This document shows positions 2 to 20,300 of a stretch of DNA of 20,300 bases, piece by piece. The position numbers and the translations under genes were made by a program. Source of the stretch: a virus. Within the stretch, counting starts at the first letter, position 1. Each line of letters opens with the position of its first letter. The notes under the pieces are model-generated. The model was given only the letters and a program-made list of their open reading frames with translations, was not told the DNA's origin and searched no databases. The stretch is from IMG/VR virus record IMGVR_UViG_3300032235_000677, positions 1 through 20,300 of that record, one strand, 5' to 3'.

Positions 2-3000
2 GCATATTCTAAGTTTGAAAATGGATGGGAAAGAGAAACTGGATTTTTAAATAATAATTTCCAAAGAGTTCAAGATAGTTTTTACTATCAAAATTTCTCA
101 TATTCATTAAAATCTAGAGTTCCATATGATAAATGGGAAGATGTTATAGGTTCATTGAACCATACTTTGGGATTTAAGAAATTTAGTGATTATCAATGCG
201 AACCCTCTTTTGCTGAAGTTCAGGATAATAAATTATCAGTAGGTGTTTCTACTAGTAGATTAGATTCTTCAATAGGACTTGTAGGCATTGCTAACTTGAA
301 TTGTTACTATGATTTTGATTTGGTTAGGGAAAATGCTCTGAGAGACGAAGATTCTATTTTTTCTTCGGAGGTTTATTTTAATAGTAGAATTCTTACAGAT
401 TACTTTGAATCTGTGGGAAACAGAGTTCTTTCAATAGATGACTTTAGTGGTTCTTTCTATAATCTACCAAGAACTACAAGATATTCGGTAGCACATAGAT
501 TTGCATTGAGTGATTTCAGAGCACAAAAATACATAACTTATGTTAAAGACAGAAGATACTTTAAACAGAGGCAGTTGATGCTAGTAACTTTAGTTCATGA
601 TAATGTTACTGGTTATTTGAATCAATATGGAAGAGTTGAAAGTTCCTCTGATTTGGGATCATTTGATTTTTCAATAGAAAATAATGAAGGTTTACTACTA
701 TTCTATCCTCAAAAATATTTGTGGAATGATTATGATGTAACTACTTTTGTATACAATTTAAAGGATACTTTTATCGGAATTGCAAGTACAAACTTCGGTG
801 GAGTATCATATTTTGATGCAAATACTGTTCAAGTTTCTTCTGGATCAACAACAATTATTGGAGTTGGAGTTACATTCACATCAGTTAAAGCAATAGTTGA
901 AATCTCCACAAATAATGGACGTTATGAATTTAATGAACTCAATGTGATTCATGATGGAACCGATGTTAATATGATTAACTATGCTCCATTGTCTAGTGGA
1001 AATTCTAGTGCATATTCAAGTTCAGAAATAGGAAGTTTTGATGCATATATTTCTGGATCTCAATTAAAAATTGATTTTACACCAAATGTTGGAATCTCTG
1101 CCACAATAAGTTCTGTTAGCGTATCAATAGCAGACACTACCTCAACTGGAATAGGAACACATGATTTACAATATACAAAGATTGAATCTAGATCAACATC
1201 CATAGGAGCATCAGCATCTCCGATTGCAAACGTAATAGGAGAATATCCTGATACTTATAATGGAGCATATTATATTGTACAAATTTCAGACACAACAAAT
1301 AATATGCATCAATTGTCTGAAGTAATTGTGGTCGATGATGAAGATACGTCATATGAAACGGAATTTGCTACTCTTTACACAAAATCAGGAATTGGCACCA
1401 TAGGTTCTTTAAAAACACCAACTTCAACTCAGTTGGTATTTACTCCAAATCCAAACATAAATGTTGAAGTGAAAGTTTATTCAAATTCAATTAGAGATTT
1501 TAGAGATGATACTAAGGAATTATCTTTCAACAATGATCTTTTAGTCAATCAATATGAAGTTTATTATGGATCCGCAATTGATATTAAAAGAGCATTTGAT
1601 TTAAATTATAGACAAAAACCTATTTTTAAGAGAGGTTTTAACGCAAGTAGTTCGGATATCGTAGATCTTAATAACAATACAATTAAATTAGAAGATCACT
1701 TTTTTGTTACTGGAGAAAAATTAATTTATTCATCAGGAACAATTTCAGAATCTAATTCACCAATAGGAATACAAACAACTGATTTTGGAGTTGGTATTGG
1801 AACAACAGAAAAAATACCCAGCACTGTTTATGCCATTAAAGTTGACAAAAATAAAATTAAACTTGCTAAGAGTGCTGAAGATGCGTTAAGTTTTGTTCCA
1901 AAAACTCTAGATTTTGTTTCTCTTGGTATAGGGACAAATCATACCTTTACTTCAATAAATCAAAACGCAAGAGCCTTAATTACACTTGATAATGTAATTC
2001 AATCTCCAGTAGCTTCAACTGCTACAACATCACACTTGACATCACCTTCTCTTATATCTGAAGATATATTGTATTTTAATAATACAACTGAGTTTTTCAC
2101 GGATAGTTTAATTAAAATTGACGATGAAATAATGAGAATTGATTCTGTTGGTGTTGGATCAACTAATGCGGTTAGAGTAAATAGACCTTGGTTGGGATCC
2201 ACGGCACAAGATCATTCACTAAATTCTAAAGTTATAAAATTACAAGGAGATTACAATATTGTTGAAAACAGAATTCATTTTGTGACAGCTCCATATGGTA
2301 AAGTTCCCATTGGAACAACAACAAATGCACCAGATGAAATTGATTGGCAAGGAATATCAACAAATTCTACATTTTATGGTAGGGTCTTTATGAGATCTTC
2401 TGAGATTAATAGTGATAGAACACCATATTCAAAAAATTATGTTTTTGATGACATTTCCGATAAGTTTAATGGTAGAGATAAAGAATTTATTATAAAATCG
2501 GACTATTCTGACGTATCAGATATGTCTGACGATAATGCAATTATATTATTAAATGAAGTGTTCCAACAACCCGGTGTATCTGGAGCGTACAATTTAGTGG
2601 AAGGTAATGTAGGCATTACCTCTATTGTATTTGTTGGTGCTGCTACATCTACCCCAGCAGATATTAACACATCAAATTTACCATCTGGTGGCATAATAGT
2701 TTCTGTTGGTTCAACTTCTGGTTATGGATATCAACCTTTAGTATCTGCAGGAGGAACAGCAATTGTTTCCGCCTCTGGCACGATATCTGCAATTAGTATT
2801 GGGAATAGTGGGTCGGGATATAGGAAAAAAATTCAAAATTATTTTATAACAAAAGATGTGACTGTTAGAGTTGGAGTAGCAACTTCATCTACAGAGACTG
2901 CGGAAATTCAGTTTATTGGAACAGCATCTGTTACAAATGGAAATGTTGTTAGTATTGCAATTACTAACCCCGGAATAGGATATACTAGGTCAAATCCACC

Positions 3001-4807
3001 ATACGTTATTATTGATCCTCCATTGTCATATTCAGACATTCCATTAATTTATAGATCATCATCCGGAATTGGAACTAGAGCAACAATTGATATTGTTGTT
3101 GGACAGGGATCAAGTGTAATTGATTTTGAAATAAAAAATATAGGATATGCATATAAACCGGGAGATATTTTGACAGTTGATACAAATAGTATTTCTGGAA
3201 TTCCAACTGTACAAAATTCTACTTTTAATCCATTTGAGATCTCTATTCAAAGAACATCTACTGATAAATTTTCTGGATGGTCAATAGGTCAATTACAAAT
3301 TTTAGACAACATCGAAAGATTTTTCACTGGAGATAGAGTTATTTTCCCATTAAGATCTCAAGGTCAGTTAATATCTATTTTATCTGCAAAAGGATCGGAT
3401 ATTGTTATTAGAGATAATTTATTAATTTTTATCAATGAAATTCTCCAAATCCCAGGAAAATCATATATTTTTGATGGGGGAAGTACAATAAGATTTACTG
3501 AACCACCAAAAGTCGGAGACACCTGCAGTATTTTGTTCTACAAAGGAAGTGGTGATATTGATGTTCCCCTTAGAAATACATTAGAGACAGTTAAACCTGG
3601 AGATGAGATTATGTTAACATATGACTCATCACTAGGACAAGAACCAAGTTTGTTAGAAAATCCAAGAACAGTTACGGAGATTAAGAGTATTGATTTTGTT
3701 GAGACAAATCCATATTTTGGTCCAGGAAATACACCCGATCAAGTTTTGTCTAGACCATTAGTTTGGTGCAAACAAACATCTGATAAAATTATTAATCAGA
3801 AAGAGGTTGGAAAGGACAGAATGCTATATGAAGCGTTGATATATCCATCGACGCATATTATTAAATCTGTAGGAATCGGTTCAACAGTTATTTTTGTTGA
3901 TAATGTAAGACCTTTCTTTAACCCGTTAAATGAAAATATTTCTTCTTTACAATTCCAAAAAAATGTTAGACTATACTCACAAGATAATTTAGTATCAGCA
4001 GCTGCTACTGCTTTAGTTTCTTCATCTAGTACAATATCGTCCATTGTTATAACGAATGGAGGATTCGGGTATAATGAACCCCCACAAGTAGCAATTCAAA
4101 ATCCAATAGGAATAGGTACAACAACTACAACGGCAATTTCATCTATAACATCCGGTTCTGTAACTTCGATAGAAATTGTTGGAGTTGTAACTGGTTATTC
4201 TCAGAGCAATCCACCATTGGTTATAATAGAACCCCCCAAACAAAAATTTGAAGATAACACTTCATTAAGTTATTCTGGAGATTTTGGAATTATTACTGGA
4301 ATTGCAACTACATCCGTTGGCGTTGCTTCTACTGGCATAATCTTTGATTTTGTAATACCATCAAATTCTCCATTGAGAAATAGTTCAATAACAGGTTTAA
4401 CTACTATTAGCTCTATTGCAAATGGATATTATTTTACAGTATCTAATTCAAATGTCGGTAATGGGGTTACTTCTTTAGATTATGGTGGAAATATTGTTGG
4501 AGTAGGAACTTCTTTCTTAGACGGAGTTTATCATGTTGCAGATGTTTCCATCGCTAGAACATCAAGTATTGGATTTGGAGTTACTTATGTGGCCAGAGTT
4601 ACTGTCAGTGTTTCTAGTTATAATCAACTATCCGGTATTGGAATAAGTAATTATTATGGTGATTTTAGTTGGGGAAGAATTTTGTTAGGTCCAAGACAAA
4701 AAGAAAATGCTTATGATGCATATACAACTGAAGGATACCCTGGAATATCTACTGGAACTATCGTAAGAAGATCAAGTCCTTTAAAATATTCTGATTATCT
4801 AATATAA
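2..4807 (+). CDS. Giant virion structural protein, 5'-truncated by window edge (probable gp7-position baseplate protein)
   Basis: The reading frame is open from base 2 with no stop before 4805-4807, so 1601 residues are visible and the true start lies upstream. A TTG at 155 is only an internal codon: the residues before it (SFYYQNFSYSLKSRVPYDKW and on) read as ordinary protein in the same frame and resemble segments of large marine T4-like phage structural proteins. The chain is beta-rich and modular. Residues about 297-376 and 422-497 are a tandem duplicated beta domain. About 686-747 is an IDDE-type module also seen at the end of gp15. About 900-1007 and 1331-1412 carry GYT/NPP beta repeats. 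No membrane segment or enzyme motif is seen. Its place directly before gp8 is that of T4 gp7, a baseplate wedge protein, but I see no convincing residue-level match to T4 gp7, so that identity is inferred from order only. A role as a baseplate or tail-fibre-attachment component is likely. Confidence 0.85.
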   Translation, partial: AYSKFENGWERETGFLNNNFQRVQDSFYYQNFSYSLKSRVPYDKWEDVIGSLNHTLGFKKFSDYQCEPSFAEVQDNKLSVGVSTSRLDSSIGLVGIANLNCYYDFDLVRENALRDEDSIFSSEVYFNSRILTDYFESVGNRVLSIDDFSGSFYNLPRTTRYSVAHRFALSDFRAQKYITYVKDRRYFKQRQLMLVTLVHDNVTGYLNQYGRVESSSDLGSFDFSIENNEGLLLFYPQKYLWNDYDVTTFVYNLKDTFIGIASTNFGGVSYFDANTVQVSSGSTTIIGVGVTFTSVKAIVEISTNNGRYEFNELNVIHDGTDVNMINYAPLSSGNSSAYSSSEIGSFDAYISGSQLKIDFTPNVGISATISSVSVSIADTTSTGIGTHDLQYTKIESRSTSIGASASPIANVIGEYPDTYNGAYYIVQISDTTNNMHQLSEVIVVDDEDTSYETEFATLYTKSGIGTIGSLKTPTSTQLVFTPNPNINVEVKVYSNSIRDFRDDTKELSFNNDLLVNQYEVYYGSAIDIKRAFDLNYRQKPIFKRGFNASSSDIVDLNNNTIKLEDHFFVTGEKLIYSSGTISESNSPIGIQTTDFGVGIGTTEKIPSTVYAIKVDKNKIKLAKSAEDALSFVPKTLDFVSLGIGTNHTFTSINQNARALITLDNVIQSPVASTATTSHLTSPSLISEDILYFNNTTEFFTDSLIKIDDEIMRIDSVGVGSTNAVRVNRPWLGSTAQDHSLNSKVIKLQGDYNIVENRIHFVTAPYGKVPIGTTTNAPDEIDWQGISTNSTFYGRVFMRSSEINSDRTPYSKNYVFDDISDKFNGRDKEFIIKSDYSDVSDMSDDNAIILLNEVFQQPGVSGAYNLVEGNVGITSIVFVGAATSTPADINTSNLPSGGIIVSVGSTSGYGYQPLVSAGGTAIVSASGTISAISIGNSGSGYRKKIQNYFITKDVTVRVGVATSSTETAEIQFIGTASVTNGNVVSIAITNPGIGYTRSNPPYVIIDPPLSYSDIPLIYRSSSGIGTRATIDIVVGQGSSVIDFEIKNIGYAYKPGDILTVDTNSISGIPTVQNSTFNPFEISIQRTSTDKFSGWSIGQLQILDNIERFFTGDRVIFPLRSQGQLISILSAKGSDIVIRDNLLIFINEILQIPGKSYIFDGGSTIRFTEPPKVGDTCSILFYKGSGDIDVPLRNTLETVKPGDEIMLTYDSSLGQEPSLLENPRTVTEIKSIDFVETNPYFGPGNTPDQVLSRPLVWCKQTSDKIINQKEVGKDRMLYEALIYPSTHIIKSVGIGSTVIFVDNVRPFFNPLNENISSLQFQKNVRLYSQDNLVSAAATALVSSSSTISSIVITNGGFGYNEPPQVAIQNPIGIGTTTTTAISSITSGSVTSIEIVGVVTGYSQSNPPLVIIEPPKQKFEDNTSLSYSGDFGIITGIATTSVGVASTGIIFDFVIPSNSPLRNSSITGLTTISSIANGYYFTVSNSNVGNGVTSLDYGGNIVGVGTSFLDGVYHVADVSIARTSSIGFGVTYVARVTVSVSSYNQLSGIGISNYYGDFSWGRILLGPRQKENAYDAYTTEGYPGISTGTIVRRSSPLKYSDYLI
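890..1492 (+). repeat. Tandem duplicated beta domain inside the giant structural protein
   Basis: Two protein copies, nucleotides 890-1129 (80 codons) and 1265-1492 (76 codons), align along their length. Shared landmarks are an opening AIVEIS / YYIVQIS strand, a middle NVIHDGT / VIVVDDEDT turn, a G-S-F/L strand (EIGSFDAYISGSQLKIDFTP versus GTIGSLKTPTSTQLVFTP), and a closing run of alternating small and hydrophobic residues. DNA identity is low, so the duplication is old. These are probably tandem beta-sandwich domains acting as spacer or contact units. Confidence 0.6.
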
Positions 4808-4823
4808 AATACATCTATATACC

Positions 4824-4831
4824 CATAAATA
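4824..4831 (+). promoter_or_regulatory. Putative T4-type late promoter before gp8
   Basis: CATAAATA differs from the T4 late promoter octamer TATAAATA at the first base only. It lies in the 39-base gap before gp8, with 15 bases between the octamer and the ATG. T4 late promoters are read by a phage sigma factor (gp55) and need no -35 box, and none is seen here. The local sequence is very AT-rich (a run of ATAAATAAATAAA), so a chance match is possible. Confidence 0.45.
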
Positions 4832-4846
4832 AATAAAAAACTCCAA

Positions 4847-6415
4847 ATGGCAGCAATTATAACTGATCAGATTAGAATACTTAATGCTAAGAATTTTGTT
4901 GCTGGTGTAACAACTTCGGATAATTCTTATTATGTATTTTTAGGATTACCAAATCCATATGATATTCAAGAAGATTGGGATTATAATCCACCTGCACCAA
5001 AAGATAATTTTAATGAAGAAAATAATTATTGGGATACAGCAATATCTTTAAAAAAAATACTTCCTACTGATGTTAGACAAGTAATTCCAAAAATAACTTG
5101 GGCATCTGGAATTACTTATGATTATTATAGACATGATTATAGTAGATCAAATATAGCTCCTGTTTCCGGTTCTACTTCACTTTATGGTGCATCATATTAT
5201 GTTATGAATAGTGACTATAGAGTTTATATTTGTTTGCAAAATGGAACTGATCCAGAGAACCCAAGAGGTAGACCATCTTTAGATGAACCAACATTTGTGG
5301 ACTTGGAACCAAGAACAGCTGGACCAAGTGGAGATGGATATGTTTGGAAATACCTTTATACAGTAAAACCTAGTGATATTGTAAAATTTGAATCAACAGA
5401 TTTTATGCCAGTTCCTCAAAACTGGGAAACGAATCAAGATAATGCTTCAGTTAGAGAAAATGCAGTAGATGGATCAATAAAAACTATCATTATAAATCCA
5501 GATAATTTGGATAATAGGGGAGTTGGTATTGGCACTGCCAATATAACTTATACGAAAGTTCCTATCAGAGGTGATGGATTTGGTGCTGAATGTACTATTA
5601 CAGTAAATAATGATCAGCGTGTTCAATCGGTTATCGTTTCCAATCAAGGATATGGATATACTTATGCCAATGTAGATTTGGAGGGGGGGAGTGTACCAAC
5701 AGGAACAGTAAGGCCAAAGTTAGATGTAATAATTTCGCCCAAGGGTGGACATGGGCGTGATATTTATAGAGAACTTGGATCTTATAATGTTTTGATATAT
5801 TCTAGAATAGAAAATGACGTTGAGAATCCAGATTTTATTACTGGAAATCAAATATCTAGAATAGGAATAGTTAAAAATCCTCTACTTCCATCTTCTATTA
5901 ACATATTGTCTTCAGATAAGGCAAGTTGTACTTATGCTATTAAATTGACTGGAGTTGGTTATAGCTCTGCAATTTTTACACAAGATTCTACAATAACGCA
6001 AACAATAGGGACAGGAGTAACTGCTGTAGGTAAAGTCGTTAGTTATGATCAGAATACAGGAGTTTTAAAGTATTGGCAAGACAGAACTCTTGCTGGATTT
6101 AATACCTCAGGATCGTCTCAAATTAATCCAAAATATGGATATAATCTTACGAGATTTACTAGTGGACCATCCGCTGGGGGTAGTTTAGTTGTAACAGGAA
6201 ATAGTGGAAATTCTTTATCTATTGATACTAATTTTAGTGGTATTTCGACAGTAATAAATAATAGAACATACTACCTTGGGCAATCTTTTGTAGGTGGATT
6301 ATCTGATCCTGAAGTTAAAAAATACTCCGGTGAGATCATTTATGTTGATAATAGACCAGCAATTACTAGATCAATAAACCAAAAAGAAGATATTAAGGTT
6401 ATTTTGCAGTTTTAA
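4847..6415 (+). CDS. 8: Baseplate wedge protein gp8
   Basis: This is a homologue of T4 gp8, a structural subunit of the baseplate wedge. The C-terminal 32 residues contain SGEIIYVDNRPAI followed by an acidic stretch and a final ILQF, matching the T4 gp8 end (SGEMIYMENRPPI and ILFTF). Other matches to T4 gp8 are LPTDVRQVIPKITW (72-85) and GDGYVWKYLY (162-171). The protein is 522 residues against 334 in T4. The extra length is largely internal, between about residues 190 and 480, and includes a GYT-type beta module at about 238-281. The start is the first ATG after the upstream stop; no clear Shine-Dalgarno sequence precedes it, only A-rich leader. It is followed after 6 bases by the next gene, so the two are probably translated from one transcript. 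Confidence 0.93.
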   Translation: MAAIITDQIRILNAKNFVAGVTTSDNSYYVFLGLPNPYDIQEDWDYNPPAPKDNFNEENNYWDTAISLKKILPTDVRQVIPKITWASGITYDYYRHDYSRSNIAPVSGSTSLYGASYYVMNSDYRVYICLQNGTDPENPRGRPSLDEPTFVDLEPRTAGPSGDGYVWKYLYTVKPSDIVKFESTDFMPVPQNWETNQDNASVRENAVDGSIKTIIINPDNLDNRGVGIGTANITYTKVPIRGDGFGAECTITVNNDQRVQSVIVSNQGYGYTYANVDLEGGSVPTGTVRPKLDVIISPKGGHGRDIYRELGSYNVLIYSRIENDVENPDFITGNQISRIGIVKNPLLPSSINILSSDKASCTYAIKLTGVGYSSAIFTQDSTITQTIGTGVTAVGKVVSYDQNTGVLKYWQDRTLAGFNTSGSSQINPKYGYNLTRFTSGPSAGGSLVVTGNSGNSLSIDTNFSGISTVINNRTYYLGQSFVGGLSDPEVKKYSGEIIYVDNRPAITRSINQKEDIKVILQF

Positions 6416-12400: not shown

Positions 12401-13987
12401 ACCCTTGGAAGTACTTCATTAGGAAGAAATGCAATACTTTCTCTTGTTTCTATTGCAAGTACAAGCGAATTGATTTTAGATAATGTGCAAGGAGAGTTTC
12501 TTTCTGGAGTTGGAAAAACAGTATCTTTCATAAACAGTTTAGGGGTATCAACTACATTAAACTCATCTGTAGGTGGAAATGTACAAATTTCTGGCATAAA
12601 CATTGAAACTGATGGTTTACATATTGTCGTGAATCATAAAAACCACGGAATGAATTTTGAAAATAATTATGTTAAAATTTTCAATGTAAAATCGGATGTT
12701 CCTCCAACAAAACTTTCTTCAGAAAGAAATTATAATTCAAGTGGACCAATATTGGTAGATAGTGCAGCAGATTTCGGTACATTTGAGAATGTTGGAGTTG
12801 GAACTACTAATCCCGGTTATGCCTTAGTGGGAAATGTATTGTTTGAGTATACTTCAGTTTCTGCTAATTCATTAAATGACGTTACTAAGGTTGGATTTAT
12901 TGATCCAGCAATTCCTAACAATTTACTTTCTGCGTTGCAAATAAGTTATGGGTCAGGAACACCTGTTTACAAATATGAACTTGGTGGAGTATCTTTACTT
13001 AGAATTAATAAAACGCATTACCTAGGAGATGCTACAGTATCAGATCCTATAAGTTTTGATTCATATGCAATCAAAATTAAAATGGATTTAAATGGAACAG
13101 ATAGATCTTCTGGAGTAGGATTTCCAAAACTTTATGTTAATAATACAAAGTCTGATGGTGGATTTAACATAAAAGCAACTCAAAATATACCTTTTGAATT
13201 GATAACACCAAATATACAAAATACTACGGTACAGGGAACTAATTTATCTGCTGAGATTAGAACCATTAGTGGATCTAGCATTAGTGGAAATGAAATAGGT
13301 TTTGTAGATAAAGGATTTGAACCTATCGCATTAAATAAGACAAATTATTTTGATACGCCAAGAATAATTGCATCTAGAGTAAATGAAACTGAATTTTTGA
13401 CAGAGTTGCCAGGCAAAAAATCATTAAATTTAAGACTCAATCTATCAACTGCAGATACTTTAGTGTCTCCTGTAGTTGATACACAGAGAATGTCTGTTAT
13501 TTTGACAACGAATAGAATTAATAAAGTTATTTCAAATTATGCAACAGATAATAGAGTTAATGCGATAGGAACAGATCCATCTTCTTTCCAATACATATCT
13601 AAGGAAATTGTTTTAGAAGCCCCAGCATCATCTATTAAAATTATCTTAGATGCTCATGTTAATGTTTATTGCGACTTACGAGCATTTTATGCAATAGGAG
13701 AATCTCAGAATTTCACTCCAATATTTACCCCCTTCCCAGGGTATAATAATTTGGATGAAAGACAGCAGATTATAAATTTTGAAAATAGTAATGGATTATC
13801 AGATACACTTGTTCAACCATCATCTTCTCTTGGATTTGAAAGTGCCAACATTGAATTTAGAGAGTATACTTTTACTGCAGACCAATTACCTTCATTTAGA
13901 TCTTATAGAGTTAAACTAGTTTTAACTTCAACAAGTCAAGTATATCCACCTAGAGTTAAAAATCTAAGAGTTATAGCTTTAGCATAA
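6422..13987 (+). CDS. Giant virion structural protein, DUF4815-type (2521 aa)
   Basis: The N-terminus (NVSPYFDDFDP, then GYPVQARELTTLQSTLQNQI, then FGQHFFKEGAKVIPG, residues 8-66) is the signature of the DUF4815 family of large structural proteins in marine T4-like phages. Further conserved blocks are: an LESRIKNLEYYTALSLLE helix (nt 9800-9853); YMRSRNIQFV to FFDGVDITKYC (about 1430-1461); a beta domain from WWDPLAQSFLV to about residue 1850; and a C-terminal domain (about 2347-2521) with FPGYNNLD and PPRVKNLRVIA. Between these lie smaller modules: SGATG-type (91-153, 486-531), a Tyr/Gly-rich tract (1344-1379) and GYT-type repeats (1924-1992). It stands between gp8 and gp13, where T4 has genes 9, 10, 11, 12 and wac, so it may do the job of several of them in the outer baseplate or fibre attachment. 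That function is inferred. The start ATG follows the gp8 stop by 6 bases with a weak AAAGAA ribosome site. Confidence 0.85.
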   Translation: MSQETNLNVSPYFDDFDPKNDYYKILFKPGYPVQARELTTLQSTLQNQIEKFGQHFFKEGAKVIPGNISYNQFFYAVQIQPTYLGVPVEAYISQLVGTKIIGESSGITATVEKILLSSESERDSTTLYVNYVSSSTQNNSSTQFFDGENLLTTTTVTSGLLGNQFISEGSPFATTIASGATSVASSFSISEGVYFIRGQFVNVNTETLILDQYSSSPSYRVGLFVNEEIVTSDMDESLNDNSQGFNNYSSPGADRLKITTTLFKKSLNDFNDNNFVELATIESGIIKTNRTTKEYSIIADELARRTYAESGDYYATPFDVSIKESLNDNLGNRGIFNEGQFTYNGSIPSESLAIYQISPGKAFVKGYEVETVSNTFLDVPKPRTTKKLERVGINYNTGSTLMLNRVYGSPVVSLGNTYVVSLRDSRVGIASTTPSGKEIGVARVYDFKLESGSYDLGNNNINQWAISLFDVQTTTEVTLNSPITLSVPTYIQGKNSGATGFLKDSVTNSTSFTIYQKNGDFVPNESFNFNGISNTRIAIALTSYGLGDVKSIYGVVGSARTFNADSIQSAVYNVGLATISTVNNLGISTITSTNPDFPGKIVQPGNLISFSNYSSDISVYASVVSVGRTNITVTGVTTVIGINEGKLPNATLNAVDLKILKTLQARSTDDTLFTPLPRPNVATIDLNDSSLTIRRSYNVTILNGQLSTPVTAEENEVFLPFDEERYCLIRSNGLAEVLTEDKFDFTNGSTQLQIYNLGGNDSATLIVTLEKIKPKSKIKFKNRINTLIVDRSNNQSSGAGATTLNDGLFYGNYPYGTRVQDEIISLNVPDVINVYAVYESRTTDNASAPTVVLSSINGTTTTTIDLIIGEQFVGQLSGAIGVYAERLTNSEISFIPQNETPFKQGEPILFRESKIQAVITSLDSPSSNISANFKFDNGQRGSHYGHAFITRNSSASSPSKKLKIYYANGYYQGSDNGDITTVESYNSFDYIKDIQTVNSMRNCDMIDIRPRVSNYTLSENSRSPLEFYGRIFNADGNSSKNVLASNESIVTTFTYYLGRIDRVFLRKDGTFQIQYGVPSDKPEKPIAIDDALEVATITLSPYLFDVSQSGIQFLEHKRYRMVDIKQLESRIKNLEYYTALSLLETSTANLFVPDSGGLDRFKSGFFVDNFSSLQSQESGIPYENSIDIKNKELRPKHYTTSTDLIQGPVDGIDPFIDYSTQQPEGFNIIKNSDIITLDYSEVEYSKQSFATRTENVTPFVISFWQATIELTPASDTWVDTVRLDAKVINAEGNYAQTLALAAEQFNVDPQTGYSPTVWGAWETNWTGKEVIETVNVSSKTTTNYHGYYGYWYGYPYGYYGYYWGYYGYYGYYGWYGRGWSNTTTVTQDTYKEIKETGEKTRTGTTTFITEQFDRQSIGDKVVSRELIQYMRSRNIQFVSKNLKPLTQVYAFFDGVDITKYCTPKLIEISMISGVFEVGEDVIGTTDDIVLLDSINTSPAITFRVAQSNHKEGQYNSPSSVYPLNPYTSQPLGETYSSTSTIINVDTFSLSAQYQGQYSGWISAGMTLVGKTSGAQATITNVRLVSDVYTSLIGSFYLPNPNISVNPRFENGSKTFALINNNLNDTNLASTLAEEKFISSGTLETVQENIISTRNGRIEQKQEIQQEDVSRTTGPQLVNSQIVSQTTNYGYRCYWWDPLAQSFLVKEASGVFLTSCDIFFKTKDNDETPVFVQIRTMQGGVPTRTVLPFSEVFLDPEQVNTSDNGSVATKFTFKAPVYLEGNNEYALVVGSTSSKYNVFISRVGVGEVDILTQSAVSTQPTLGSLFKSQNASTWEPSQWEDLKFTLYRAEFVQSGRVEFYNPELSIGNSQIPTLMPNSLSLQSRKIRIALSNPLSDNNLKLGNTVYQDGSDGTGNYVGNAGIATGSLTVINSGIGYTPSTGSVTYSSVDLVSITGNGRNAKADITIDNGVAVAATISESYGGNGYQVGDVLGITTLGSTSLGRNAILSLVSIASTSELILDNVQGEFLSGVGKTVSFINSLGVSTTLNSSVGGNVQISGINIETDGLHIVVNHKNHGMNFENNYVKIFNVKSDVPPTKLSSERNYNSSGPILVDSAADFGTFENVGVGTTNPGYALVGNVLFEYTSVSANSLNDVTKVGFIDPAIPNNLLSALQISYGSGTPVYKYELGGVSLLRINKTHYLGDATVSDPISFDSYAIKIKMDLNGTDRSSGVGFPKLYVNNTKSDGGFNIKATQNIPFELITPNIQNTTVQGTNLSAEIRTISGSSISGNEIGFVDKGFEPIALNKTNYFDTPRIIASRVNETEFLTELPGKKSLNLRLNLSTADTLVSPVVDTQRMSVILTTNRINKVISNYATDNRVNAIGTDPSSFQYISKEIVLEAPASSIKIILDAHVNVYCDLRAFYAIGESQNFTPIFTPFPGYNNLDERQQIINFENSNGLSDTLVQPSSSLGFESANIEFREYTFTADQLPSFRSYRVKLVLTSTSQVYPPRVKNLRVIALA
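10451..10558 (+). repeat. Tyr/Gly-rich YYG tract in the DUF4815 protein
   Basis: Thirty-six codons (residues 1344-1379) encode 18 Tyr, 11 Gly, 4 Trp and single His, Pro and Arg, much of it as GYY triplets. At the DNA level it is a 9-base quasi-repeat (GGATATTAT). It is flanked by Thr/Asn-rich stretches (SSKTTTN before, SNTTTVTQ after). Such aromatic low-complexity tracts suggest a flexible adhesive or self-associating loop; the function is not known. Confidence 0.8.
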
Positions 13988-13993
13988 AGTATT

Positions 13994-14221
13994 ATGAATT
14001 ATTTAAAAGTAGAGGGTCAAAATGATCTTTTTAGAGATCCAAATACAAATTCAGTTATTAATGTTAACATGACAGAATATAACCAGTACTTAGCAAGAAA
14101 AAATTTGAAGAGCTCTGAATTACAAAAAATTAATAATCTAGAATCTGATGTTGCAAGTATAAAAAATGATTTAGATGAAATTAAGGACCTATTGAGAGGA
14201 CTGAAAAATGAATCCAGATGA
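13994..14221 (+). CDS. Small coiled-coil protein, marine T4-like phage hypothetical (75 aa)
   Basis: The N-terminal half has LKVEGQNDLFRDPNTNSVIN, a pattern I recognise from small hypothetical proteins at this place in marine T4-like phages. The C-terminal half is a coiled coil: Ile46, Leu49, Val53, Ile56, Leu60, Ile63, Leu67 and Leu70 are spaced 3,4,3,4,3,4,3, a perfect heptad core. The gene starts 6 bases after the DUF4815 gene and overlaps the next by 14 bases, so it belongs to a translationally coupled group. In T4, wac (fibritin, a trimeric coiled coil) occupies this position before gene 13. A whisker-like or assembly role is possible but unproven, and the sequence itself does not match fibritin. 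Confidence 0.8.
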   Translation: MNYLKVEGQNDLFRDPNTNSVINVNMTEYNQYLARKNLKSSELQKINNLESDVASIKNDLDEIKDLLRGLKNESR

Positions 14222-14393
14222 AATTGAGTTGGAAAATTTGTCAAAAAGTTTTGAATATTTTAGATTTTCAAGTGAGATAGACTCAACTGATGATATTAAT
14301 TCATTGCGAAATATAGCGAAATGTTATTTTAAGTTATACTTAAAACAACAAGAAGTTGTTTCCAGTTTAATGATACCCAGTAATAAACTATAA
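14208..14393 (+). CDS. Small hypothetical protein (61 aa)
   Basis: This short, probably all-helical acidic protein opens MNPDEIELENLSKSF and has a second helix LRNIAKCYFKLYLKQQEVV. It resembles a small protein found at the same place in marine T4-like phages, but I know no function. Its ATG lies inside the end of the 75-aa gene (14-base overlap, different frame), with a good AGAGGA ribosome site at about 8 bases. Its stop codon lies inside the TATAAATA octamer that precedes gp13. Confidence 0.72.
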   Translation: MNPDEIELENLSKSFEYFRFSSEIDSTDDINSLRNIAKCYFKLYLKQQEVVSSLMIPSNKL

Positions 14394-14396
14394 ATA
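14389..14396 (+). promoter_or_regulatory. Exact T4-type late promoter octamer before gp13
   Basis: TATAAATA matches the T4 late promoter consensus at all eight bases and is followed by a T-rich stretch. The gp13 ATG begins 20 bases after its end, with a GAGGG ribosome site between them, which implies a very short leader. Bases 3-5 of the octamer are the TAA stop of the 61-aa gene. Confidence 0.6.
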
Positions 14397-14415
14397 TTTT
14401 TACCGAGGGAAAAAT

Positions 14416-15270
14416 ATGGCGCAACCATCTACTAGACAAGAACTAATAGATTACTGTAAAAGAAAACTGGGTGCGCCAGTTTTGGAAATAAACGTTGCCG
14501 ATGAGCAGATTGAAGATTTGGTTGACGATGCGATTCAGTTTTTTCAAGAGAGACATTTTGATGGAGTTTATCCAACATTTTATAAGTACAAAGTCACTCA
14601 AGATGACATTGACAGAGGTAGAGGATTAGGTCCAAAGGAAAATTCTCAGCATGTTGGAGTTACAACTACTACTGTAACTACAAATATTGTTGGAACTGCT
14701 ACGACCTTTACTTATTATGAGAATGGTAATTATTTGCAAGTACCTCCAAATATTATAGGAGTAAATAAAATATTTACTTTTGATGGGGCAAATACAATTA
14801 CCCATAATATGTTTAGTGTGAAATACCAATTATTTTTAAATGATATTTATTATTGGGGAACTACTGAATTACTTAGTTACGCAATGGTAAAGACATATCT
14901 AGAAGATTTAGATTTTCTTTTAAATACTAACAAACAAATTAGGTTTAACAAAAGACAAGATAGATTATATTTGGATATAGATTGGGGTTCTGTATCCAAA
15001 GGGCATTATTTTGTTATTGATTGTTATAGTACATTGGATCCTAATGATTATTCTAGAATTTGGAATGATTCTTTCATAAAACCATATTTAACTTCTCTAA
15101 TAAAAAAACAGTGGGGACAAAATATGATGAAATTTACTGGAGTAAAACTGCCTGGTGGGGTAGAACTAAATGGAAGGCAAATGTACGATGATGCACAAAG
15201 AGAAATTGATATAATAATGGAAAAAATGTCAAGTACTTATGAGTTACCTCCACTTGATATGATAGGTTAA
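14416..15270 (+). CDS. 13: Neck protein gp13 (head completion)
   Basis: This is a homologue of T4 gp13, which with gp14 closes the filled head and forms the neck to which the tail binds. Visible matches are the N-terminal ELIDYCKRKLGAPVLEINV (9-27; T4 has a similar LRRLGAPIINVEL), an FQERHFDGVY helix end (about 43-52), and the C-terminal VKLPGGVELNGRQMYDDA followed by a long acidic helix, matching T4 MLPGGVTIDGQRLIEEA. The length of 284 is close to the 309 of T4. The start is well supported by GAGGG 8 bases upstream. gp14 begins 1 base after its stop, so the two partners are probably co-translated. Confidence 0.93.
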   Translation: MAQPSTRQELIDYCKRKLGAPVLEINVADEQIEDLVDDAIQFFQERHFDGVYPTFYKYKVTQDDIDRGRGLGPKENSQHVGVTTTTVTTNIVGTATTFTYYENGNYLQVPPNIIGVNKIFTFDGANTITHNMFSVKYQLFLNDIYYWGTTELLSYAMVKTYLEDLDFLLNTNKQIRFNKRQDRLYLDIDWGSVSKGHYFVIDCYSTLDPNDYSRIWNDSFIKPYLTSLIKKQWGQNMMKFTGVKLPGGVELNGRQMYDDAQREIDIIMEKMSSTYELPPLDMIG

Positions 15271-15271
15271 T

Positions 15272-16678
15272 ATGTTAAATCCATTTTTTCTTCAAGGTTC
15301 AAAATCTGAGCAAGGTCTAATACAAGATCTTATAAATGAACAATTAAGAATGTACGGTGTTGAAGTTTATTATTTGCCCAGGCAATTTATTACAGAAAAA
15401 AAAGTAATTAGAGAAGTTATAGAGTCCGAATTTAAAAATGCTTATCCGATAGAGGCTTATTTAAACAACTATGAGGGATATGCGGATAATTCAGTTATAC
15501 TTTCTAAGTTTGGAGTGCAAGCATTAAACGAATTAACCATTACAATTTCAAGAGAAAGATATGAAACATATATTTTCCCACTAATAAAAAATATACCGGA
15601 TATTAAATTGGCATCTAGACCTAAAGAGGGTGATTTAGTTTATTTTCCTCTTGGTGATCGTTTATTTGAAATTAAATTTGTAGAACATGAAAAACCTTTT
15701 TATCAACTACAAGGAAATTATGTTTATGAATTAAGATGCGAACTCTTTAGATATGAGGATGAACTTATTGACACTGGAATTGAACAAATTGATGATAACA
15801 TATCTGGTTCCACTACAGAAGATACCTCTTCTGTAGGTATAATACAAAAATTGACGATGGTTGGGGTTGGAGTTACTGCAACTGCAATAGCAGAAATTGT
15901 TAATGGGGGAATAAGATACATTACAGTAACAAATAGAGGGGGTGGATATACAAGTGTTCCCACTGTAGGTATATCGTCAGCATCAATTGCAGGAGGAACT
16001 GCAGAGGCAATTGCAAAAATGATAGGTGGTATTGTTGTTTGTAATGATAATACTAACCCATCTGCACAATCAGTTCAAAGTGTAGAAATTATTAATGCCG
16101 GATACGGATACACTACTCCACCAGGAGTAAGATTCATCGGCGGCGGCGGAAATGGAGCAACTGCTACTGCAACAATTGGTAATGGTATTGTTGGAGTTAT
16201 TAACATAACAGATTCTGGATCTGGATATACATTACCTCCAACTATAATATTTACAGGCATTTCAAGTGTTTCAGCTGCTGCAACTGCTATTGTTTCTACT
16301 GCCGGAACAATAACACAAATTCGCATCACTAATGCGGGTCTTGGTTATACTGAACCCCCAACGATTATGATAGGAGCAGCTTCAACTTCATCCTATGGTA
16401 GTTTTATTTTTAATGAAAAAGTAGTTGGGTCCCAAAGTGAATCATCTGGACGTGTTAGATCGTGGAGTTCACCCACAAACATACTAGAAGTTTCTAATGT
16501 TACTGGAGATTTTATTCCTGGAGAAATTATTACCGGTCAAGAATCTGGTGCATATTATAAACTACGTTTTGTTGGGGTTTATCCTATTAATAATGGATAC
16601 TCCGATAATAGTGATATAGAAGAAGAAGCAGATTCAATTATAGATTTTAGTGAAAAAAATCCTTTTGGAATGCCATAA
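15272..16678 (+). CDS. 14: Neck protein gp14 with inserted beta repeats
   Basis: This is a homologue of T4 gp14, partner of gp13 in the head-tail neck. Matches to T4 gp14 include YGVEVYYLPRQFI (28-40), EAYLNNYEGY (61-70), RPKEGDLVYFPLGDRLFEI (116-134) and KPFYQLQGNYV (141-151). The short acidic tail ending FSEKNPFGMP recalls the SSPFDNDF end of T4 gp14. The protein is 468 residues against 256 in T4, and the extra lies between the core and the tail: four GYT-type beta repeats (about 193-370) and an SGAxxxL / GDFIPGEII module (about 381-430). The insertion implies surface decoration on the neck. The stop codon lies inside the octamer that precedes gp15. Confidence 0.92.
   Translation: MLNPFFLQGSKSEQGLIQDLINEQLRMYGVEVYYLPRQFITEKKVIREVIESEFKNAYPIEAYLNNYEGYADNSVILSKFGVQALNELTITISRERYETYIFPLIKNIPDIKLASRPKEGDLVYFPLGDRLFEIKFVEHEKPFYQLQGNYVYELRCELFRYEDELIDTGIEQIDDNISGSTTEDTSSVGIIQKLTMVGVGVTATAIAEIVNGGIRYITVTNRGGGYTSVPTVGISSASIAGGTAEAIAKMIGGIVVCNDNTNPSAQSVQSVEIINAGYGYTTPPGVRFIGGGGNGATATATIGNGIVGVINITDSGSGYTLPPTIIFTGISSVSAAATAIVSTAGTITQIRITNAGLGYTEPPTIMIGAASTSSYGSFIFNEKVVGSQSESSGRVRSWSSPTNILEVSNVTGDFIPGEIITGQESGAYYKLRFVGVYPINNGYSDNSDIEEEADSIIDFSEKNPFGMP
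15848..16381 (+). repeat. Four GYT-type beta repeats in gp14
   Basis: The encoded repeats centre on GGGYTSVPTV, AGYGYTTPPGV, SGSGYTLPPTI and AGLGYTEPPTI (residues about 222, 276, 315 and 355), each preceded by an alternating strand of type VxxIxITNxG. Spacing is 54, 39 and 40 residues. The segment is rich in Gly, Ala, Thr and Ile with almost no charge, as in surface beta folds. DNA identity between copies is modest. Confidence 0.75.
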
Positions 16679-16681
16679 ATA
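16674..16681 (+). promoter_or_regulatory. Putative T4-type late promoter before gp15
   Basis: CATAAATA has seven of eight bases of the T4 late octamer. It overlaps the gp14 stop codon (TAA 16676-16678) and lies 42 bases before the gp15 ATG, the longest leader of the four candidates. A small inverted repeat lies in that leader. Confidence 0.45.
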
Positions 16682-16723: not shown

Positions 16724-17725
16724 ATGTTTGAGTATTTTTATAACGAAATTCTAAGAAGAACTGTAATATCATTTGGGTCATTGTTTAATGATATAAAAAT
16801 TAAACACACAAATTCTGAAAATAATACTGTCAGTGTTATAAAAGTACCTTTAGCTTATGGTCCAACACAAAAGTTTTTAGCAAGACTAAATCAATCACCC
16901 AATTTGAATAAACCAGTTCAAATTACATTACCAAGAATGTCATTTGAATTTACTGGTTTGACATACGACTCAACCAGAAAAGCAACAACTACTCAAACAT
17001 TTACTGCAAAATCAGTTGTTGATGGAAAAGAAACTAAGAAATCATACCTTCCAGTTCCATATAACATGCAGTTTGAATTAAGTATTATGTCAAAATTAAA
17101 TGATGATGCCTTACAAATAATAGAACAAATTTTACCATATTTTCAACCAGCTTATACCATGACAGTTGAGTTAGTCGATAGTATTAATGAGAAAAGAGAT
17201 GTTCCTGTTGTGTTAGAAAATATCACTATGCAAGATGACTATGAAGGAGATTACACGACAAGAAGAGTTTTAATGTATACTTTAAGATTTACAGTAAAAA
17301 CTTATCTATTTGGTCCTACTTCTTCGGCAACAAAAGATATTATCAAAAAAACTACTATCAGTTATATTACAGGAGATACTACAAATACTCCGACAAGAGA
17401 GGTTGTTTATTCATCAGAACCCAGAGCAATTAAAAATTATACTGGAACAATATTAACAAATCTTTCTAAAGATATAACAACTAATGATATTTTGATTTCG
17501 GTAAATGATTCTTCTGGAATTGTAAAAGATTCCTACTTAGACATAGAAGGTGAAGAGGTTTACGTTAAATTAGTTTCTGGGAATGTGTTAACTGTTGATA
17601 GGGGTAGAGATGGAACTGTTGTATCATCTCACTTATCTGGAGCACAAGTTAAGTCAATTTCAAGTCAAGATAATGATTTAATTGAAGATGGTGATGATTT
17701 TGGATTTAATGGCACAATCTTTTAA
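16724..17725 (+). CDS. 15: Tail sheath stabiliser and completion protein gp15
   Basis: This is a homologue of T4 gp15, the ring at the head end of the tail that stabilises the sheath and joins tail to neck. Matches to T4 gp15 are the start MFEYFYN (T4 MFGYFYN), QIIEQILPYFQP (131-142; identical in meaning to T4 QIVEQILPYFQP) and FELSIMSKLNDD just before it. At 333 residues it is longer than T4 (272). The extra is a C-terminal beta module (about 243-312: DSYLDIEGEEVYV, then TVDRGRDGTVVSSH) that resembles a segment of the giant protein at the left of the window. No clear ribosome site precedes the ATG. gp16 follows after 8 bases. Confidence 0.93.
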   Translation: MFEYFYNEILRRTVISFGSLFNDIKIKHTNSENNTVSVIKVPLAYGPTQKFLARLNQSPNLNKPVQITLPRMSFEFTGLTYDSTRKATTTQTFTAKSVVDGKETKKSYLPVPYNMQFELSIMSKLNDDALQIIEQILPYFQPAYTMTVELVDSINEKRDVPVVLENITMQDDYEGDYTTRRVLMYTLRFTVKTYLFGPTSSATKDIIKKTTISYITGDTTNTPTREVVYSSEPRAIKNYTGTILTNLSKDITTNDILISVNDSSGIVKDSYLDIEGEEVYVKLVSGNVLTVDRGRDGTVVSSHLSGAQVKSISSQDNDLIEDGDDFGFNGTIF

Positions 17726-17733
17726 TAAGATTT

Positions 17734-18177
17734 ATGAAAATGACAAAAAAATTTAGCAAGTTAAACGAAGCATTTGATTTACCTGGGGATATTATCTCAG
17801 CAGAATCTACATCAATTTCAAAAAAAGTTGATGTGGAAATAGAAAAAATAAAATCTCAGGATGATGATATTAAAAAAGATTATGAATACACAAGAGGAAA
17901 TTTATATAGTTTAATAGAAAAAGGACAAGAAGCTATTAACGGTATTCTGGAATTGGCACAAGAAAGTGAAATGCCAAGAGCATATGAAGTTGCCGGTCAG
18001 TTAATTAAAAGTGTTGCTGACGCAACTGATAAGTTAATGGATTTGCAGAAAAAATTAAAAGATATGGACGAAAAATCACAATCAAAATCCCCAACAACAG
18101 TTAATAATGCACTATTTGTAGGATCAACTGCTGATTTGGCTAAGTTATTAAAAACTCAGTTAAATCAAGAAGAATAA
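17734..18177 (+). CDS. 16: Terminase small subunit gp16
   Basis: This is a homologue of T4 gp16, the ring-forming small terminase that helps gp17 start DNA packaging. It has the family's layout and size (147 against 164 residues): an N-terminal segment with DLPGD (15-19), a central helical hairpin starting KKDYEYTRGNLYSLI (47-61) through LMDLQKKLKDM, and a C-terminal NALFVGSTADLAKLL (125-139) like T4 NATVFMGSPTELMDE. The start could also be the ATG at 17740, two codons on; neither has a strong ribosome site. In T4 the large subunit gene 17 follows directly, whereas here two fibre-type genes follow instead. Confidence 0.9.
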   Translation: MKMTKKFSKLNEAFDLPGDIISAESTSISKKVDVEIEKIKSQDDDIKKDYEYTRGNLYSLIEKGQEAINGILELAQESEMPRAYEVAGQLIKSVADATDKLMDLQKKLKDMDEKSQSKSPTTVNNALFVGSTADLAKLLKTQLNQEE

Positions 18178-18180
18178 ATA
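18173..18180 (+). promoter_or_regulatory. Putative T4-type late promoter before the fibre cassette
   Basis: AATAAATA has seven of eight bases of the T4 late octamer and contains the gp16 stop codon (TAA 18175-18177). The next ATG lies 21 bases after its end. It would allow the beta protein and collagen-like fibre to be transcribed apart from gp16. The region repeats TAAATAAATAAAA, so a chance match is possible. Confidence 0.42.
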
Positions 18181-18201
18181 AATAAAATACTAAAATAATA
18201 A

Positions 18202-18537
18202 ATGGCAGTTCCATCTGTTAACATAACAATAGAAAAAGGAACGGATTTTGAAAGTGTTTTCACTGTCAGTAATCCAGATGGTTCTCCTTTGAATTTATCT
18301 GGTTATTCATCAATATCTAAACTTAAAAAATTCCCGTCTTCAAACGAATCTACAGAATTTTCTGTAGGAATTATGACATCTGCTGGTCAAGTAGTAGTTT
18401 CTATGGCAAACACCATATCAACTACATTAGATGAGGGCAGACATTATTACGATGTAATAATTATTAATTCTTCTACTGGAAATAAAAGAAAAATAATTGA
18501 GGGAATGGCACTTGTAACATCTTCGGCGTCTGTTTAG
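18202..18537 (+). CDS. Small beta/Ig-like phage protein, possibly BppU N-domain-like (111 aa)
   Basis: The pattern ITIEKGTDFESVF, then NPDGSPLNLSGYS, then a closing strand with EGRHYYDVIII and KIIEGMALV is that of the small beta-sandwich domain found at the start of many phage baseplate and fibre proteins (BppU_N-like: 'GDTF... dG.piDLtGyt... YDl... il.G.v.v'). Assignment to that family is from memory of the pattern and is not certain. Here it is a separate gene, ending 11 bases before the collagen-like fibre gene, so it may cap or attach that fibre. The leader is AT-rich with no clear ribosome site. Confidence 0.7.
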   Translation: MAVPSVNITIEKGTDFESVFTVSNPDGSPLNLSGYSSISKLKKFPSSNESTEFSVGIMTSAGQVVVSMANTISTTLDEGRHYYDVIIINSSTGNKRKIIEGMALVTSSASV

Positions 18538-18548: not shown

Positions 18549-20300
18549 ATGACGGACTATAACGTTACTGTAGGTTATACCCCTAGTATTAAAGTAACGC
18601 AATCTGCAACAGGTTTTGGCCCCCAGGGGATTCAAGGGACTCAAGGAACTCAAGGACCCTTTGGAACTCAAGGTGTTCAGGGTTCTCAAGGAATTTCTGG
18701 AGAATTTGCAGGTCAAGGAACTCAAGGTTTACAAGGACTACAAGGACTTCAGGGATCTCAGGGATCTCAGGGTTCTCAGGGTTTACTGGGTTATCAAGGA
18801 ATTCAGGGTCTTCAAGGTCTTCAAGGAACTCAAGGTAGACTTGGTGCTCAAGGATTTCAGGGTCTTCAAGGTCTTCAAGGTCTTCAGGGATCATATGGTC
18901 TTCAAGGACCTCAGGGATTACAAGGTTTACAAGGTGTTCAAGGTTTACAGGGTGTTCAGGGAAGACTGGGAACTCAAGGACTTCAAGGAACTCAAGGAAC
19001 ACAAGGAACATTAGGTTCGCAAGGTGTTCAAGGCGAACAAGGTTCACAGGGTCTTCAAGGAACTCAAGGAACTCAAGGTAGACTTGGTATTCAAGGAAAT
19101 CAAGGTCTCCAAGGTCTCCAAGGTCTTCAAGGACCGCAAGGTCTTCATGGTATACAGGGATCTCAAGGAACTCAAGGAACTCAAGGAATTCAAGGAACTC
19201 AAGGTAGACTTGGAATTCAGGGATTTCAAGGAACTCAAGGATCTCAAGGAACTCAAGGATCTCAGGGAATTCAAGGTGAACAAGGTTTCCAAGGAATTCA
19301 GGGATTACAGGGTTTAAGTGGTGAATTTGCTGGTCAAGGAACTCAAGGTACTCAGGGTATTCTAGGTGCCCAAGGAATTTTAGGATCTCAAGGATATCAA
19401 GGAGTCCAAGGATCGGCAATTCAAGGTTCTCAAGGATCGCAAGGTGCTCAAGGAAAGTTAGGTGCTAGTGGATCACAAGGTTCTTCAGGTTCCCAAGGAA
19501 CAGCTGGTAATGATGGATCACAGGGATTGCAAGGATCTCAAGGATCTCAAGGTTTTAGAGGATCTGTTGGTTCTCAAGGAACTCAAGGTACTCAGGGAAT
19601 TCAAGGAAAAATAGGTTTAGATGGAACCCAAGGAACCCAGGGTATACAAGGTTTATCTGGTTCTAGGGGTTTTACTGGTTTTCAAGGAATTCAAGGTGTT
19701 CAAGGAAATGAAGTTCAAGGATCTCAAGGTATTCAAGGAACTCAAGGACTTCAAGGTAGAGTTGGCGCACAAGGTCTTCAGGGGACTTATGGCGTTCAAG
19801 GTATTCAGGGATTAAGTAACCAAGGAGTTCAGGGTTCAATAGGATCTCAAGGTATTCAAGGAACTCAAGGAACTCAAGGAATTCAAGGTCACCTAGGTTC
19901 ACAGGGTATTCAAGGATTACAAGGTTTAAGTGGTGAATTCGCGGGTCAAGGAACTCAAGGTACTCAAGGTCAGATAGGATCTCAAGGCATTCAAGGTACT
20001 CAAGGTGAGCAAGGTTATCAAGGAATTCAAGGACCTCAAGGACCTCAAGGAAGATTAGGTGGTCAAGGATTTCAAGGTACTCAAGGATTAATTGGAAATC
20101 AAGGACCAGTTGGTCCTATTGGTGATACTGGACCTATAGGTATTCAAGGAGAGCAAGGTACACAAGGAGTACAAGGTTTAAGTGGTGAATTTGCGGGTCA
20201 AGGAACTCAAGGATCTCAAGGTATTCAAGGTGAACAAGGTTTCCAAGGAATTCAAGGAATATTAGGTGCTCAAGGTGAACAAGGATCTCAAGGTATTCAA
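18549..20300 (+). CDS. Collagen-like Gly-X-Gln fibre protein, 3'-truncated by window edge
   Basis: The frame from ATG 18549 is open to the last base (584 codons, no stop), so the gene continues beyond the window. Residues 1-23 (MTDYNVTVGYTPSIKVTQSA and on) form a short non-repeat head, probably for attachment. From residue 24 there are about 185 consecutive Gly-X-Y triplets, mostly GTQ, GIQ, GLQ, GSQ or GVQ. Gln fills the third position almost throughout and Pro is rare, unlike animal collagen. A landmark SGEFAGQGTQG (one Gly-to-Ala change) recurs four times and GRLGxQG about six times. Three 5-residue units (GSAIQ, GNEVQ, GLSNQ) break the triplet register. A trimeric tail or head fibre rod is likely, with a folded tip expected downstream. 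The other long frames over this stretch are shadows of the repeat. Confidence 0.92.
   Translation, partial: MTDYNVTVGYTPSIKVTQSATGFGPQGIQGTQGTQGPFGTQGVQGSQGISGEFAGQGTQGLQGLQGLQGSQGSQGSQGLLGYQGIQGLQGLQGTQGRLGAQGFQGLQGLQGLQGSYGLQGPQGLQGLQGVQGLQGVQGRLGTQGLQGTQGTQGTLGSQGVQGEQGSQGLQGTQGTQGRLGIQGNQGLQGLQGLQGPQGLHGIQGSQGTQGTQGIQGTQGRLGIQGFQGTQGSQGTQGSQGIQGEQGFQGIQGLQGLSGEFAGQGTQGTQGILGAQGILGSQGYQGVQGSAIQGSQGSQGAQGKLGASGSQGSSGSQGTAGNDGSQGLQGSQGSQGFRGSVGSQGTQGTQGIQGKIGLDGTQGTQGIQGLSGSRGFTGFQGIQGVQGNEVQGSQGIQGTQGLQGRVGAQGLQGTYGVQGIQGLSNQGVQGSIGSQGIQGTQGTQGIQGHLGSQGIQGLQGLSGEFAGQGTQGTQGQIGSQGIQGTQGEQGYQGIQGPQGPQGRLGGQGFQGTQGLIGNQGPVGPIGDTGPIGIQGEQGTQGVQGLSGEFAGQGTQGSQGIQGEQGFQGIQGILGAQGEQGSQGIQ
18618..20300 (+). 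repeat. GGN-NNN-CAR 9-base tandem repeat coding for the collagen-like rod
   Basis: The DNA is a degenerate 9-base repeat (Gly codon, variable codon, CAA or CAG) running to the window end. GRL/GRV triplets begin at 18834, 18960, 19077, 19203, 19755 and 20049, giving early spacings of 126, 117 and 126 bases. SGEFAG marks begin at 18696, 19317, 19929 and 20181, spaced 621, 612 and 252 bases. Many spacings are close to multiples of 126 bases (42 residues), which suggests growth by larger unit duplication as well as by single triplets. Confidence 0.9.

Follow-up and report, generated by a model that had tools for sequence, protein, structure and literature searches.

Collagen-like phage fibres are already known. 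EPclP, encoded by prophages of E. coli O157:H7, has folded ends, with PfN, PfC and PCoil as flanking domains, on either side of a collagen segment that lacks hydroxyproline (X 48% Pro, 36% charged; Y 14.5% Gln). Across published viral collagens, Gln accounts on average for 13% of Y and Pro for 22% of X (PMC3368898 Table 4). FibU, a baseplate fibre of Staphylococcus phage 80alpha, contains a predicted collagen-like segment of about 30 residues within a 390-aa protein (PMC7048315). The freshwater cyanophage S-CRM01 encodes two fibre proteins with collagen triple-helix repeats, SCRM01_020 and SCRM01_023, in which 82/135 and 40/60 triplets, respectively, are Gly-X-Gln (GXQ). What keeps collagen stable when proline and hydroxyproline are lacking is of current interest in biology and biomaterials. 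Host-guest peptide studies place Gln among the better uncharged residues for the Y position. Axial contacts between Gln in Y and Phe in X' stabilise triple helices in peptides (PMC9599227), and for bacterial collagens rich in Thr and Gln, networks of hydration have been put forward (PMC8968730).

The window analysed here, 20,300 bases, is an entire IMG/VR record, and it closes within a gene for a collagen-like fibre. The likeness to EPclP and FibU lies in the combination of phage fibre and collagen segment. The composition of the window rod differs sharply from that of EPclP, with 5% Pro in X and 75% Gln in Y, and FibU has other end domains. The S-CRM01 rods come closer in their GXQ content; unlike the window rod they are shorter, have 17-20% Pro in X, and possess other ends and other interruptions, the GxF[AV][GA]Q unit described below not being seen in them.

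The collagen-like gene and its surroundings

The open reading frame begins with an ATG at position 18549, preceded by an SD-like GAGGGG, and continues on the plus strand to the window edge at 20300, giving at least 584 codons without a stop; the 3' end of the gene lies beyond the contig. The product scores 267 bits against the Pfam Collagen family PF01391 (cut-off 27), and its regular Gly spacing extends far beyond 20 triplets. Its 23-aa non-collagenous N-terminus, MTDYNVTVGYTPSIKVTQSATGF (18549..18617), resembles the starts of two related proteins (L013 and L055, see below) and is presumed to be an anchor. The repeat starts at residue 24 and forms a rod (18618..20300) of 181 Gly-X-Y triplets, 135 of which (75%) are GXQ, with a longest unbroken GXQ run of 11 and X chiefly T, L, S or I. 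Only 9 triplets (5%) contain Pro, always in X, and charged residues account for 7% of X/Y. The original prediction had rightly described a reading frame open from 18549 to the edge and a long repeat in which Pro is rare. Its figure of about 185 triplets was somewhat too high, its description of the triplets as nearly all Gly-X-Gln overstated their purity, and it left seven interruptions unmentioned. The window rod has neither the Pro- or imino-rich X or Y of animal-type or EPclP-type collagens, which PF01391 does not require, nor the EPclP pattern of Pro-rich X, charged X/Y and GPK/GPQ/GPA triplets. Long antisense or out-of-frame ORFs over the rod, such as 18589-19419 on the minus strand, were set aside as mechanical shadows of the stop-free repeat.

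Four interruptions are copies of GEFAGQ, located on the plus strand at 18699..18716 (in register, with Ala at the Gly position), 19320..19337, 19932..19949 and 20184..20201. In the window and two relatives (L012 and L013) together, 29 of 41 repeat breaks have the form G-[EQL]-F-[AV]-[GA]-Q, a six-residue unit that places Ala or Val in a Gly position and preserves the register. Copies of the unit vary by silent changes, and related units, GAYAAQG and GAFAAQG, are present in other cyanophage rods. Repeated Gly-to-Ala or Gly-to-Val sites would weaken a triple helix; the GxF[AV][GA]Q units probably give the rod flexible or hinge points, or mark its register.

The genes upstream, all on the plus strand, form a T4-like structural cluster with cyanophage homologues, in the order gp13-gp14-gp15-gp16-fibre assembly-collagen gene. 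They encode a gp13-like neck protein (14416..15270; phrog_211; 72% identical to the SynMITS9220M01 protein and 69% to gp13 of S-SM2), a gp14-like neck protein (15272..16678; phrog_460, PF11649), a gp15-like tail sheath stabiliser (16724..17725; PF16724, 284 bits), a gp16-like terminase small subunit (17734..18177; phrog_445, PF11053), and a 111-aa protein of the PHROG family 'L-shaped tail fiber protein assembly' (18202..18537; phrog_3304, E 2e-22). The last of these genes stops 11 bp before the collagen gene and has relatives in 142 phage records, mostly from cyanophages. Since the nearest gp13 proteins come from Synechococcus phages, the virus is cyanophage-like, from which we also infer the host. 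Two overlapping ATAAATA sites resembling late promoters (18174..18184, plus strand) lie upstream of 18202 and presumably drive both that gene and the collagen gene.

Across the window, six of the seven plus-strand ATAAATA sites, which resemble T4 late promoters, touch its only 163 intergenic bases (binomial 1e-11). Counted by cluster, four of five are intergenic (6e-8), and the window total is not above chance. The sites at 4825-4835, 14390-14396, 16675-16681 and 18174-18184 lie about 18-49 bp upstream of the genes starting at 4847, 14416, 16724 and 18202.

A full-length relative and the fibre tip

Relatives were found by searching with the 111-aa phrog_3304 neighbour. The corresponding proteins on contigs L012 and L013 are 92% and 74% identical to it, respectively, and in both a collagen-like gene comes next. 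Because these independent contigs carry the same gene behind the same neighbours, the collagen-like ORF is real and not an assembly artefact. The L013 protein is complete at 1610 aa; it starts with MADYNVSI, resembling the window N-terminus, and its N-terminus of about 19 aa leads into a 1025-aa rod, after which come 566 aa of C-terminal sequence. In L012 the rod is 955 aa long, and the contig ends within the C-terminal part. At about 0.286 nm per residue, assuming a triple helix, the L012 and L013 rods would measure about 270-290 nm (L013 ~290 nm), and the visible part of the window rod ~160 nm. The tip and total length that the original prediction hoped to obtain by extending the sequence could thus be read in L013, the window's own 3' end falling outside the record, and the very long fibre with folded ends that it envisaged probably corresponds to the anchor, rod and folded tip of this relative.

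Among PHROGs, the C-terminal part of L013 hits cyanophage families, notably the tail-fibre family phrog_17885 (E 7e-159), and this tip family has relatives in 161 phage records, again mostly from cyanophages. The phrog_17885 tip is seen in both L012 and L013, and the window, which ends upstream of that region, would by analogy encode the same tip. The Peptidase_S74 chaperone is absent from the L013 tip and present in the third gene downstream, an observation that concerns L013 and not the window, whose sequence stops earlier. An initial AlphaFold model covering the complete tip had a mean pLDDT of just 59; confident prediction was confined to tip residues ~20-160, with pLDDT values of 85-96 over residues 21-160. 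Comparison of the tip sequence with solved structures gave no significant match, and only fold comparison was informative. The predicted fold of the first ~230 tip residues resembles PL6 alginate lyases (Z ~17), and tailspikes and the tail fibre of Agrobacterium phage 7-7-1 (9rkv) with Z 14-17; identity to these proteins is only 10-20%. Foldseek TM-scores were low (0.1-0.3) despite good E-values and Z-scores, consistent with a matched sub-domain. The first part of the tip is predicted to be a right-handed beta-helix of polysaccharide-lyase/tailspike type, a statement about fold and not activity.

A 'GxGYTxxPxV.I' module is common to the L013 tip, the C-terminal part of the gp14-like protein (15272-16678) and the baseplate wedge protein (2-4807). 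The copies match the same PHROG profiles, pointing to module sharing among unrelated virion proteins.

The tip also occurs without a rod. In P-SSM2 (PSSM2_293) and S-SRM01 (gp329) it is 54-60% identical to that of L013 over its full length, although these proteins are only about 620 aa, have another N-terminus and are encoded near psbA instead of after gp16; rodless proteins of ~620 aa are also found in L301 and L302. L055 provides a rodless positional orthologue, a 781-aa protein encoded directly after the phrog_3304 gene, in which a short start, MSEYIVKL, is joined to the tip with no collagen. Because such rodless relatives exist, the rod is best understood as a modular spacer inserted or lost between anchor and tip, and the rodded and rodless orthologues show that phages alter the reach of a fibre tip through insertion or deletion of a collagen spacer. 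Downstream of the tip gene, L013, L301 and P-SSM2 each have a small gene (~110 aa) and then larger ones, some of fibre type.

A proposed fibre and its alternatives

The product is, in our view, likely to be a fibre on the receptor side of a T4-like cyanophage virion, composed of an anchor, a collagen-like spacer and a beta-helix tip, with Gln in the spacer kept by selection. The short N-terminal anchor would fix the fibre to the tail or neck of the particle, and the phrog_3304 protein may assist in its assembly. The spacer, whose length would run from several hundred residues to about 1000, is presumably a homotrimeric triple helix with a rise of ~0.29 nm per residue, and would hold out the C-terminal tip, whose first part is the predicted right-handed beta-helix. 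The folded tip may bind a receptor or polysaccharide and help to nucleate the triple helix. The Pro-poor rod would manage without hydroxyproline, Gln probably being favoured in Y as one of the better uncharged residues there for inter-chain contacts and hydration, and the repeated GxF[AV][GA]Q units may serve as flexible or marker sites.

Silent and replacing changes were counted between the window and L012, one clean pair whose initial 153 rod codons align collinearly. Gly positions showed 13 silent and 0 replacing changes (0/51 Gly replaced), X positions 7 silent and 18 replacing, and Y positions 14 silent and 3 replacing (X versus Y, Fisher p=0.0013); Gln in Y was kept in 40 of 41 cases, with the codon changed in 14. 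A second pair, L018/L020, gave the same direction (X 18 silent/12 replacing, Y 18/4). The other pairs were unsuitable: the register shifts within L041/L042 and within L114/L120, and L087/L105 have zero silent changes at Y. Since Gly and Gln persist through silent changes while X drifts, Gln is under purifying selection at the protein level and not just copied. The Gln-based rod of the original prediction fits with this selection at Y, whereas the stabilisation it suggested for Gln would be by analogy with peptides (PMC9599227).

The same counts bear on whether the Gln purity arose by passive expansion of DNA repeats from a GXQ founder unit, Gln having no special role. Tandem repeats of 9-63 bp are indeed detectable in the rod DNA, the rod lengths of relatives differ mostly by multiples of three residues, and the L087/L105 pair, which concerns other rods, is what copying would leave. 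At the nucleotide level, however, the repeat units of the main arrays agree only to about 60-75%, and recoding of 14 conserved Gln codons beside a changing X speaks against copying, making this explanation quite improbable. It is also unlikely, though somewhat less so, that the rod forms, in place of a collagen triple helix, another Gly-rich structure, such as a polyglycine-II-like bundle or a mostly disordered tether, in which Gly at every third residue is fortuitous. The scarcity of Pro and of charges in the window rod would suit such a structure, as would Gly-to-Ala/Val sites spaced every 30-200 residues, and Pro-free viral GXY repeats do exist. Against it stand the complete conservation of Gly through 13 silent changes and a strict register across 560-1025 residues that even the six-residue interruptions preserve; moreover, a hydroxyproline-free phage collagen-like protein trimerises and melts at 42 C (PMC3368898), although that protein is Pro-rich.

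Modification of the rod in animal fashion, by a prolyl-hydroxylase-like 2OG-Fe(II) oxygenase of the phage itself, is highly improbable. Oxygenases of this family (PF13640) are encoded by 15 of 17 cyanophage genomes, and their genes directly precede or follow collagen-like fibre genes in L301 (11587-12138) and six other loci (L062, 9700-10964; L107; L166; L223; L261; L291). Within these loci, however, such adjacency is seen 7 times against 5.8 expected, with no enrichment, and the linkage was dropped as a chance-level association. DSL-LC02 has GXY rods without a PF13640 match, the single PF13640 copy of S-CRM01 is far away from its rods, and the window rod offers just 9 Pro to modify. The premise that prolyl hydroxylation is nothing a bacterial virus can depend on was therefore too general in view of the 15 cyanophages with such oxygenases, while the expectation that the rod does not rely on Pro held.

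Gln-rich rods among other viruses

Viral contigs were scanned, blind to Gln, for ORFs containing 20 or more GXY triplets in a row. Among the 118 ORFs in the matches listed, the median GxQ content was 12%, 7% had 50% or more, and one matched the level of the window (0.75). A second scan, for ten consecutive GXQ codon triplets, listed 88 loci with at least 50 triplets; in this pattern-selected set, at least 34 had 80% GXQ or more and at least 11 had 90% or more. GXQ rods also occur in isolated phages, at 61-67% in S-CRM01, 81% in S-SCSM2R and 43-83% in DSL-LC02. The composition of the window rod is extreme, yet not unique. The search proposed with the original prediction, for phage proteins with more than 80% GXQ, was productive, with rods of up to 98% GXQ and of up to 594 triplets; the purity it regarded as unusual is exceeded in many listed loci, and a description as the purest GXQ rod was ruled out. 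Translated searches with the rod itself matched collagen-like proteins of unrelated phages and, given the low complexity, were not taken as homology.

What appears new is a class of rods dominated by GXQ and almost devoid of Pro, in which Gln is under selection and a conserved unit replaces Gly; no paper describing Gly-X-Gln phage rods was found in the open-licence literature, which is weak evidence of absence. Tentatively, as a reading that is possible and still doubtful, GXQ rods may form a class of their own among viral collagens, and a widespread one: Gln, maintained in Y by selection, would take over the stabilising role of Pro or hydroxyproline in nearly Pro-free triple helices of 300-500 nm, and GxF[AV][GA]Q would mark hinges or the register at regular intervals. 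The phage rods provide long natural sequences with uncharged Gln filling Y under selection, and the idea is directly testable.

Two of the listed rods are both longer and purer than that of the window, each with 1% Pro or less: L103 (1-6385), with 594 triplets and 96% GXQ, and L156 (6462-14372), with 430 triplets and 98% GXQ. L138 (3-1589, minus strand) is a near-pure (GAQGFQ)n repeat, with regular Gln-then-Phe pairs of the kind that stabilise triple helices in peptides (PMC9599227). L044 encodes two rods (2354-5503 and 13197-16224) of 93-94% GXQ, which carry a regular SNANVQG interruption instead of GEFAGQ.
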